A DNA stretch of 64,000 nucleotides from Bradyrhizobium sp. ORS 278. Its GTDB lineage: Bacteria > Pseudomonadota > Alphaproteobacteria > Rhizobiales > Xanthobacteraceae. The notes beneath the pieces are model-generated. The model worked only from the letters and a program-made list of their open reading frames with translations, ran no database searches and had not been told where the DNA came from. The position numbers were made by a program, and so were the translations under genes. Below, in pieces: positions 17,254-24,054 of the stretch (positions are counted from its first letter, which is position 1; each line of letters starts with the position of its first letter). Location of the stretch: positions 372,001-436,000 of the forward strand of contig NC_009445.1 in NCBI RefSeq assembly GCF_000026145.1. The letters run 5' to 3'.

Positions 17254-18581
17254 GCGTCGATGTCGTCACCTTCGGCTGCCGGCTCAACGCGTTCGAGTCC
17301 GAGCTGATCGCGCGCCATGTCGAGGCAGCGGGGGCGGACGACACCATCGTCATCAACAGCTGCGCTGTCACCAACGAGGCCGTGGCGCAGGCGCGGCAAT
17401 CGATCCGCAAATTGAAGCGCGAGCGCCCTTACGCGCGCATCGTCGTGACTGGTTGCGCGGCGCAGACGCAGGCCGACATGTTCGCTGCGATGCCTGAAGT
17501 CGATCGCGTGATCGGCAATGACGACAAGCTGCGGCCGGACGCCTGGCGCGCGACTACGCAGGTGCTGGCTGCGCCCCGCTTCGGCATCGATGCGACCGAA
17601 AAGGTCGCCGTCTCCGACATCATGGCCGTCACCGAGATGGCGCCGCATCTGGTCGACGGCTTCCAGCGCGGCCTGCCGCGGGTGTTCGTCCAGGTGCAGA
17701 ACGGCTGCGACCATCGCTGCACCTTCTGCATCATCCCCTACGGCCGCGGCAATTCACGCTCGGTGCCGATGGGGGCGGTGGTCGATCAGGTGCGAACGCT
17801 GGCTGAGCGCGGCCATGCTGAGATCGTGCTGACCGGCGTCGATCTCACCAGCTACGGCGCCGACCTGCCCGGCACGCCGAAGCTCGGCCTGCTGGTGAAA
17901 CAGATCCTGCGCCACGTGCCGGAGCTGAAACGGTTGCGCATCTCCTCGATCGATTCGATCGAGGCCGATGCCGACCTGCTCGATGCGCTCGCCGACGATG
18001 CCCGGCTGATGCCGCACCTGCATCTGTCATTGCAGGCCGGCGACGACCTGATCCTGAAGCGTATGAAGCGGCGGCATGTGCGCGCGGACGCGATCGCGTT
18101 CTGCGACCAGGTGCGTCGGCTGCGGCCGGACATCGCGCTCGGCGCTGATCTGATCGCAGGCTTTCCAACCGAGACGGAGGAGATGTTTACGCGCTCGCTC
18201 GACCTCGTCGAGGCATGCGGCCTGACGCTCCTGCACGTCTTTCCCTATTCGCCGCGCCCGGGCACGCCGGCCGCGCGCATGCCGCAGGTGGATGGCGCCG
18301 TCATCCGTGATCGCGCGCGTCGGCTGCGCGCAGTGGGGGAGGCTGCGTTGCGGCGGCGGCTGGATGCCGAGATCGGCTGCGCGCGTGAAGTTCTTATCGA
18401 GAGTGCGACGCAGGGCAGGACGGAGCATTATCTGCCGGTGTCAGTCACGGGTGCCGAGCCGGGCTCAGTGCAGCGGCTGGTGATCGCCGGCCATGATGGC
18501 GGAAAACTGTCAGCCCCACCCTCGGTGTCATCGCCCGGCTTGACCGGGCGATCCAGTACGCCGCGGCCTCTTGGTCAATAA
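17250..18581 (+). CDS. mtaB: tRNA t6A37 methylthiotransferase MtaB
   Basis: MtaB converts t6A37 to ms2t6A37 in ANN-decoding tRNAs using two [4Fe-4S] clusters. The protein is 443 residues. The N-terminal cluster cysteines are Cys10, Cys38 and Cys69, and the radical-SAM triad CDHRCTFC spans 153-160. The TRAM-like C-terminal region is present but degenerate. The last 19 or so residues ([15 protein letters not shown] end) are translated from a palindromic repeat that begins near 18526, so the native end was probably displaced. It overlaps dapF by 4 bp. Confidence 0.94.
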
Positions 18582-18630
18582 TAACCGCCTCTGGAATACT
18601 GGATCGCCCGGTCGAGCCGGGCGATGACAG
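18526..18630. repeat. palindromic repeat, family C copy 1
   Basis: Inverted repeat with TCATCGCCCGGCTTGACC on the left and its near-complement GGTCGAGCCGGGCGATGA on the right, with GATCCAGTACGCC inside. It overlaps the last 18 codons and stop of mtaB. A second copy is at 21419-21520. Confidence 0.9.
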
Positions 18631-18677
18631 CTGTGGTGTGGGCGAGAGTGCAGGGTCTCACTTGCGTCCGAGACGCT

Positions 18678-19580
18678 TCACTCCCCATTCCACCCGCACA
18701 GCCGCAGCCGCTCATGCATGTGCAGCGGCGCCGGCGCAACCACCTGCACCGGCGGCTTGTTCTTCGAGAGCGGGATGGAAATCTCCCGCGCATGCAGATG
18801 CAGCCGCGGCTCGCCGAAGCGCGGGCCGTTGCCGTAGATGTTGTCGCCTATGATCGGCCAGCCGGACGCGGCGGAATGCACGCGGAGTTGGTGGGTGCGG
18901 CCGGTGATGGGTTCCATGGCAAGCCAGGTGAGCTTGGGTGCCTTGCCTGATGAGGCCGCGCTCTCGCCAGTGGCGCGATCTGCTCCCTCCCCCCTTGCGG
19001 GGGAGGGTCGGGGTGGGGGGTGGCTCCGGGCGGCAATGCCCGTGGGGACCCCCACCCCCGACCCCTCCCCGCAAGGGGGAGGGGAGGTCGTGCCACAAGT
19101 GGGAGGTGAGCTTGGCGATGGGTCGGCCGCAGCGACAGCGTACGACCGCCCCAGCACCCGCCACTTCGTCACCGCCGGCTGCCCGCTCGGATCAGGCTTC
19201 TGCCACCAGCCGCGCTCGGCGTTGAGCTTGCCCAGCGGCAGCTCGATCACGCCTTCGTCAGCCTCCGGGCCGCCCTCGACCACGGCCCAATAGGTCTTCG
19301 AAATCTTGCCGTGCTTGAACAAAAGCCCGAGCGACGCCGTTGCCTTGCGATGGCGGCCGAGCACGAGGCAGCCGGAGGTTTCCTTGTCGAGCCGATGTGC
19401 CAGCACCGGCGGGCGCGGCAGGCCAAAGCGCAGGGCGTCGAACGAGGCTTCGAGGTTCGGGCCGCCCTTCGGTCCCTTGTGCACGGGAATGCCGGCGGGC
19501 TTGTCGATCACCAGCATCAGCCCGTCGCGGTGAAGCACGCGGGCCAGCATCTCCTCGTCGGTGGGTTGGTTAATGTCCAT
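18678..19580 (-). CDS. RluA-family 23S rRNA pseudouridine synthase with in-frame repeat insert
   Basis: This 300-residue protein is a pseudouridine synthase of the RluA/RluC type without an S4 domain. The catalytic Asp65 is in [10 protein letters not shown] and the C-terminal motif GRTHQLRVH is intact. Between them, residues 165-199 are encoded by a GC-rich palindromic repeat (18984-19088) and read as Pro/Gly/Arg-rich sequence unlike the rest. The insert keeps the frame and falls between conserved blocks, so the enzyme may still fold. The ATG at 19580 has only a weak ribosome site, but longer starts would overlap ftsY. It is convergent with mtaB. Confidence 0.88.
18984..19088. repeat. palindromic repeat, family D copy 1 (inside a coding region)
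   Basis: CTCCCTCCCCCCTTGCGG at the left and GCAAGGGGGAGGGGAG at the right form the arms. Bases 19045-19084 are identical over 40 nt to 24013-24052 in the second copy. This copy lies wholly inside the pseudouridine synthase gene. Confidence 0.92.
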
Positions 19581-23953: not shown

Positions 23954-24054
23954 CTCCCCTCCCCCCTGCGGGGAGGGGTTGGGGGTGGGGGTCCACACGG
24001 GCAGTCTTTGCTGGGACCCCCACCCCCGACCCCTCCCCGCAAGGGGGAGGGGGG
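23954..24054. repeat. palindromic repeat, family D copy 2
   Basis: Arms CTCCCCTCCCCCCTGCGG and CCGCAAGGGGGAGGGG. It lies in the 207-bp gap between ccmA and ccmB, and shares a 40-nt identical right arm with the copy inside the pseudouridine synthase gene. Confidence 0.92.

Follow-up and report, generated by a model that had tools for sequence, protein, structure and literature searches.

A palindromic repeat dimer in frame within an RluA-type pseudouridine synthase gene of Bradyrhizobium, at a loop site probably filled repeatedly

Palindromic repeats read in frame within proteins are familiar as the Rickettsia palindromic elements, and inverted REP units with a short or long spacer between them make up the BIMEs. 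Intragenic REPs, as portrayed in the excerpted text of PMC3733652, for which three Bradyrhizobium strains were studied, are short palindromes, often dimers, that are mostly intergenic and in some instances lie wholly inside open reading frames. The same excerpt reports REPs in tRNA pseudouridine synthase A/B genes, in a DNA ligase of another bacterium, and in recB of two Xanthomonas, where the REP occupies about the same site; it calls the REP effect on pseudouridine synthases unclear, and it refers to strain BTAi1 as photosynthetic. Br-REP1 and Br-REP2, in the excerpted text of PMC5082802, have consensus sequences different from the hairpins described here.

The element and its host gene

The window (the whole 64,000-nucleotide stretch of the Bradyrhizobium sp. 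ORS 278 genome analysed in this study) contains a gene whose product is assigned to the RluA type of pseudouridine synthases by a Pfam PF00849 match above the gathering score (E 9.3e-30, 104.3 bits versus 26.8), by the HRLD and GRTHQLR blocks and by an RluA fold, the closest solved relative of the predicted structure in the PDB being RluA 2i82 (TM 0.82 by target). In NCBIfam, the RluA, RluC, RluD and TruC equivalogs score 68-79 bits with cut-offs of 286-378, hence no named equivalog is assigned, and the TIGR00005 subfamily reaches 153.9 bits, under its cut-off of 192.7. The nearest named relatives of the source genome are Bradyrhizobium such as B. aeschynomenes 83002 and BTAi1, members of a clade that we take to be, and label as, photosynthetic.

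An initial annotation, made from the DNA letters, had located a palindromic repeat inside this gene, read in frame as residues 165-199, and both its coordinates and its reading proved exact: 19088-18984 on the reverse strand is precisely codons 165-199, with HRLD on one side and GRTHQLRVH on the other. The two catalytic blocks are intact, as had been claimed, from residues 62 and 227, and H62, R63, L64 and D65 as well as G227, R228, T229, H230, Q231, R233 and H235 are invariant in alignment A2. The element spans 105 bp (window 18984-19088), consists of two 23-bp hairpins arranged as an inverted dimer, and leaves the frame open throughout (Table 1). Its palindromic nature is borne out by the 80% complementarity of the 49-nt arms and by an RNA fold of -111.5 kcal/mol (z -8.2) that none of 200 shuffles equalled. 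That it is a repeat is shown by the 40 loci that it occupies in the genome. A 40-nt identity with an intergenic copy holds to the letter (19045-19084 versus the copy at 23954-24052); that copy we take to lie between ccmA and ccmB, following the gene names as first given.

Table 1. Coordinates of the features discussed (window positions except for the ligase linker)
Feature	Position	Strand	Remarks
RluA-type pseudouridine synthase CDS	18678..19580	(-)	300 aa from MDINQ, stop included; PF00849, 2i82 fold match
Catalytic HRLD block	19386..19397	(-)	intact, from residue 62
GRTHQLRVH block	18876..18902	(-)	intact, from residue 227
Whole inserted loop, residues 146-216	18933..19145	(-)	3 residues in 105/182 orthologues; predicted disordered
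Palindromic dimer	18983..19088	.	49-nt arms 18983-19031 and 19038-19086; 18984-19088 = residues 165-199
Hairpin unit, second in mRNA	18985..19007	.	CCCTCCCCC-cttgc-GGGGGAGGG
Hairpin unit, first in mRNA	19062..19084	.	CCCCTCCCC-gcaag-GGGGAGGGG
Intergenic copy	23954..24052	.	repeat match
In-frame palindromic repeat, ATP-dependent DNA ligase linker	L175 1540-1718 (genome 6999939-7000117)		recurrent in relatives

The element in the RluA-type gene is free of stop codons in all six frames. The same is true of 6 of the 13 short-spaced dimers of the source genome, this copy included, compared with 45 of 1460 control stretches, from which it follows arithmetically that about one insertion in three would leave a frame open. 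The open frame suggests that the insert is translated. Alignment with orthologues upheld the presence of an insert but not its size, which is 71 residues (146-216) and not 35, the repeat forming the middle half; in the first ortholog alignment, all 29 relatives have a 3-residue loop (e.g. GDG) as opposed to the 71 residues of the window protein. AlphaFold2, supplied with a broad alignment of 84 rows, positions the insert between strands 137-145 and 217-224. The core is predicted with confidence, 192 of the 300 residues reaching a pLDDT of 90 or more, and the insert is predicted to be disordered (blocks at 46-55). The model obtained from the shallow alignment A1, comprising 44 rows of close relatives, had a mean pLDDT of 43.6 and was set aside.

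Another palindromic repeat, of the CGCCCGG..CCGGGCG type, is present at window positions 18520-18640, where it overlaps the 3' end of the MtaB gene (18581) and codes the last residues of the protein. For the MtaB tails in eight of ten relatives, L070 has nearly the same repeat-coded residues, L069 and L072 have parts of them, L071 has another, and four are without.

The loop and the repeat family across genomes

Among 182 distinct orthologues, the loop comprises 3 residues in 105 and more than 15 in 55, counts that do not express a prevalence because the set was partly chosen by similarity to the inserted query. The likeness to Rickettsia palindromic elements proposed at the outset, namely that the repeat lies within open and conserved coding sequence, is upheld. 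The gene was matched with E below 1e-40 in 261 of 265 genomes of the genus, and a single alignment ran through the insert region in 10 of the 265 genomes of the genus search and 39 of the 296 of the family search, a few of the loops concerned having no recognisable repeat (e.g. L201). Eight genomes of the photosynthetic clade have 67-77 residues at the loop site; two further orthologues of the clade, L050 and L051, have loops of 20 and 28 residues in which no repeat is clear, and we read these as probable scars. Hairpins with C/T arms are found within the loop in 37 of the 182 orthologues and elsewhere in the coding sequence in none, the space searched being 10.7 kb of loop versus 128 kb of remaining CDS. 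The 37 orthologues span 12 genus codes of the family, Rhodopseudomonas and Nitrobacter included. Loop states are mixed within the genera coded g41, g37, g30 and g58. Outside the family, no long insert appeared among the matches listed: these are 67 orthologues from 8 further families of the same order, and their net length exceeds that of the empty form by at most 8 residues.

Several observations concern individual inserts. In two further carriers, L223 and L224 (the latter the same as L099), the frame is broken or garbled, perhaps owing to assembly errors. In several assemblies (L049/L087, L244, L247) the contig breaks off at the insert or close to it, and the intact protein P0053 starts its loop like L224. 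In L045, L046, L192 and L193, a further palindromic module is nested in frame in or beside the first hairpin, for example GAGCGAATCTCGCTC or CCCCGGACTTGATCCGGGG, and two of the ligase inserts, L318 and L321, share the residues of CCCCGGACTTGATCCGGGG (ACPGLDPG). A separate insertion of about 12 residues (TQASLRRLRNEPY and similar), in which no palindrome was seen, follows NIYG in seven orthologues (L077, L078, L081, L082, L084, L085 and L100), with Nitrobacter among the carriers.

Matches to the element in the 7,456,587-bp source genome (G000) number 83, or 40 loci once merged within 400 bp. A genome-wide search for the repeat in other coding regions, as the initial annotation had suggested, yielded one further gene: coding-like sequence flanks three of the 40 loci on both sides and two of these stand, in the RluA-type gene and in an ATP-dependent DNA ligase (L175), so that 38 of the 40 are not inside a gene by this test of flanking coding-likeness. 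The third, L152, was dropped as a likely antisense false positive (first-position GC 0.86-0.89). In G129, the hairpin-A pattern gave 33 loci, with one doubtful short ORF (L365, 150 aa); the genome's own RluA copy is absent from these 33 because an extra module interrupts its hairpin.

In the wide sense of multicopy palindromes of 20-40 bp, often in inverted dimers, the family is REP-like, having 23-bp hairpins, 46 hairpin-A matches in G000 and 40 loci of which 38 are outside genes by the test above. Assignment to the GTAG/CGTC family was rejected on the tags, which set the two apart: within 8 nt of 31 hairpins there are 0 GTAG, 0 CTAC, 0 CGTC and 1 GACG. Rfam families matched to the hairpins (E up to 1) were mostly microRNA, far below gathering scores, and are read as chance. 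A search for Y1_Tnp transposases, as candidate RAYT movers of the repeat, returned two matches in G000, at 25.6 and 24.5 bits barely over the cut-off of 23 and neither tied to the repeat, and none in the carriers G469 and G337. G248, a main Bradyrhizobium with an empty loop, has 15 Y1_Tnp matches, 14 of them equal in score, as if an IS200-type transposase had recently expanded there. As regards the intergenic ccm copies, a counterpart of the one at 23954-24052 is present at the same place in all eight other genomes searched; they are mostly paired hairpins and more variable, that of G130 being degenerate and the second hairpin of G079 interrupted, as judged by eye.

Three hairpin patterns (A, B and C) were counted in 40 genomes at <=2 mismatches with the strands summed, such that a B site can count twice. 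Besides the 46 matches in G000, hairpin A was sought in six other photosynthetic carriers, where five genomes have 33-74 matches and the remaining one, G079, has 12; three Bradyrhizobium with a 3-aa loop have 1 match each. Hairpin B has 54-223 matches in seven Rhodopseudomonas whose inserts contain B or a one-mismatch form of it, and 4 in G469, whose insert is of another subtype without B and whose loop is identical to that of R. faecalis P0082. Hairpin C is absent from 9 photosynthetic-group and 8 Rhodopseudomonas genomes and has 6-23 matches in the four genomes where the insert agrees with it to within one mismatch. The insert subtype largely follows the host genome's own repeats. Exceptions are G367, which has matches to all three patterns (73 to B and 11 each to A and C) yet an insert of another form, three main Bradyrhizobium with 44-62 hairpin-B matches and empty loops, G079 with its low count of hairpin A, and four genomes of the Nitrobacter code, in which hairpin A has 0-1 matches and the inserts are decayed. 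The initial annotation had implied that strains lacking the repeat family would lack the segment as well. This is borne out in part: insert-free orthologues are numerous, but the decayed relics of the four Nitrobacter-code genomes lie at the same place, and the insert can thus outlive the repeat family. The first hairpin is read in phases 0, 2 and 4, that is in all three reading frames, with an even-loop type in addition, and the second likewise in several. Among the Rhodopseudomonas inserts (genus code g52), one form contains PHPNPLPQAGEGA and others TSPWRGEV...TSPTWGEV.

In the ligase, the linker (delimited by SETVALMWP and TLTEVV) could be read in 26 of 30 loci. In 12 of the 26 it has 12-13 residues. 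Five linkers (L318-L321, L331), three of which come from the Rhodopseudomonas code, contain two strong hairpins as a dimer whose phases equal those seen in the RluA-type gene; L322 has another hairpin set, and five linkers have one strong hairpin. Three linkers are long with no hairpin over the threshold, including that of the source genome, which matches the repeat by BLAST.

Origin and maintenance of the insert

A core-protein tree, built from 113 of the 182 genes with the loop excluded, implies at least 18 changes between long and short loops, 10 of them forced by starred branches. Restricted to clear hairpin carriers and short loops, it gives 11 insert/none changes, or 14 when the hand-coded phase is taken as the state, and a single clade of the 38 clear carriers is rejected (p-AU 7.7e-76). 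Carriers adjoin short-loop genes on the tree in the case of L086 with L271 (11 aa, 100*), L208 with L245 (3 aa, 96*) and L212 with L259/L265 (5 aa, 99*). The change counts do not separate gain from loss, and gene transfer between lineages could mimic both. Repeated gain is favoured by the reading phases, by the scars that likely losses leave, and by the 67 orthologues of other families, which differ from the empty form by no more than 8 residues net. Given a subtype that is mostly host-like, three reading phases and the rejection of a single origin, the loop site has probably been filled repeatedly. We thus consider it likely that the site was filled independently in several lineages, mostly by the local subtype, and that the insert is a tolerated flexible loop on a normal enzyme. 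Part of the pattern may still be one old insertion, for spacing and phase are similar in Bradyrhizobium, Rhodopseudomonas and Nitrobacter.

To bring this about, a REP-like dimer of the genome's own family would land in the codons of a tight beta-turn of the RluA-type enzyme. The dimer length would keep the frame, and a short-spaced dimer, being nearly stop-free in any frame, would let the gene stay open. The element would form a Pro/Gly/Arg-rich, flexible loop in an enzyme that is normal in other respects and whose translation and activity are here deduced from sequence. Independent filling would have taken place in several lineages of the family, mostly with the local repeat subtype, and old inserts would decay to short in-frame scars. 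The turn would most likely be among very few places at which an insert of about 100 bp is harmless, insertions elsewhere being purged, and the uniformity of the hairpins could arise from exchange with other genomic copies or from constraint on the hairpin. Tolerance alone does not explain why just two genes were hit in the source genome (2 of 40 loci). Possible, albeit doubtful, is that the RluA turn and the ligase linker are a true landing site for lineage-specific palindromes, the palindrome being kept or renewed for a role at the level of DNA or mRNA; if so, two nucleic-acid enzymes would each have one loop that is continually rewritten by a repeat family.

Silent sites provide a measure of how far the palindrome itself is preserved. 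Fourfold third-base differences amount to 30/447 (0.067) and 41/677 (0.061) in the hairpins of two genera. The corresponding fractions are 0.22-0.31 for the core and 0.35-0.37 for the remainder of the loop. The hairpins therefore differ far less than the core at silent positions, suggesting that the palindrome is maintained or homogenised. The dN/dS of the loop is 0.60 in photosynthetic Bradyrhizobium and 0.73 in Rhodopseudomonas. Coupled with the very stable RNA hairpin and the recurrence at one RluA site and in one ligase linker, the low fourfold differences could mean that the insert is kept for a function, with selection acting either on a DNA or mRNA hairpin (by way of pausing, mRNA stability or attenuation) or on the loop of the protein. 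We judge this rather unlikely, considering that many relatives have a 3-residue loop and that core windows as low as the two hairpins number 6 and 8 of 206 in photosynthetic Bradyrhizobium. In Rhodopseudomonas the counts of such windows are 0 of 208 and 0 of 210. Nor is silent-site uniformity proof of a role in the RluA-type gene, because the intergenic ccm copies also mostly keep their paired hairpins; the uniformity is not gene-specific, and homogenisation or general hairpin upkeep explains it as well as a role in the gene does.

Alternatively, one insertion in the ancestor of the family could have been followed by many losses, and gene conversion from the repeats of each host lineage could later have replaced the hairpin sequences there. 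Like site, spacing and phase in Bradyrhizobium, Rhodopseudomonas and Nitrobacter are consistent with such a history, as are the hairpin 2 subtype of most Rhodopseudomonas, which differs from that of G469, the uniformity of the hairpins at silent sites, and the loops of 14-28 aa without a clear repeat, which, read as scars, suggest that loss occurs. Common descent of this kind nonetheless appears quite unlikely in view of the three reading phases of the first hairpin and the exact 3- or 5-residue loops, rather than scars, in near relatives of carriers; with the single clade rejected, very many losses would be needed. That the gene is a pseudogene in carriers, its open frame an accident of a repeat that is stop-free in six of six frames, is highly improbable despite the broken or garbled frame of two carriers, since the core dN/dS is 0.075 in photosynthetic Bradyrhizobium carriers and 0.149 in Rhodopseudomonas carriers versus 0.108 in non-carriers, the catalytic blocks are invariant, and the gene is matched at E below 1e-40 in nearly every genome of the genus (261 of 265).

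Relation to known palindromic repeats

Independent filling of a tolerated loop, the reading we prefer, would explain the Pro/Gly-rich segments of these RluA-type proteins as repeat-derived, and it offers, in free-living bacteria, a natural allelic series for one enzyme loop, with empty, freshly filled, diverged and scarred states. It thereby makes testable how palindromic repeats move, why few coding sites accept them, and whether they serve as new protein sequence or as an RNA or DNA element. No description of this gene or site appeared among the open-licence papers searched, of which PMC3733652 is the one directly pertinent. In-frame REP and RPE insertions are already known; what is new is the recurrent filling of one site across genera, largely by local subtypes, in two genes.

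There exist likenesses to three described systems. With the intragenic GTAG/CGTC REPs, as the excerpted text of PMC3733652 presents them, the family shares genome-wide short palindromes that are often dimers and in part lie within ORFs; it differs in having no GTAG/CGTC tag, in residing in an RluA-type gene, and in one site that is filled in 12 genus codes with varied subtypes and phases. The BIMEs, or inverted REP dimers, resemble it in pairing two inverted hairpin units across a spacer, which may be short or long, whereas no partner transposase is tied to the family here, given two marginal Y1_Tnp matches in G000 and none in two carriers. Like the Rickettsia palindromic elements, the repeat stands in frame as an extra protein segment, and judged from the open frame and the conserved core it appears to be an in-frame insertion in a conserved gene that is compatible with function. 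It is set apart from them by another repeat and another host group, by the 38 of 40 loci that are not in a gene, and by one gene site that is refilled.
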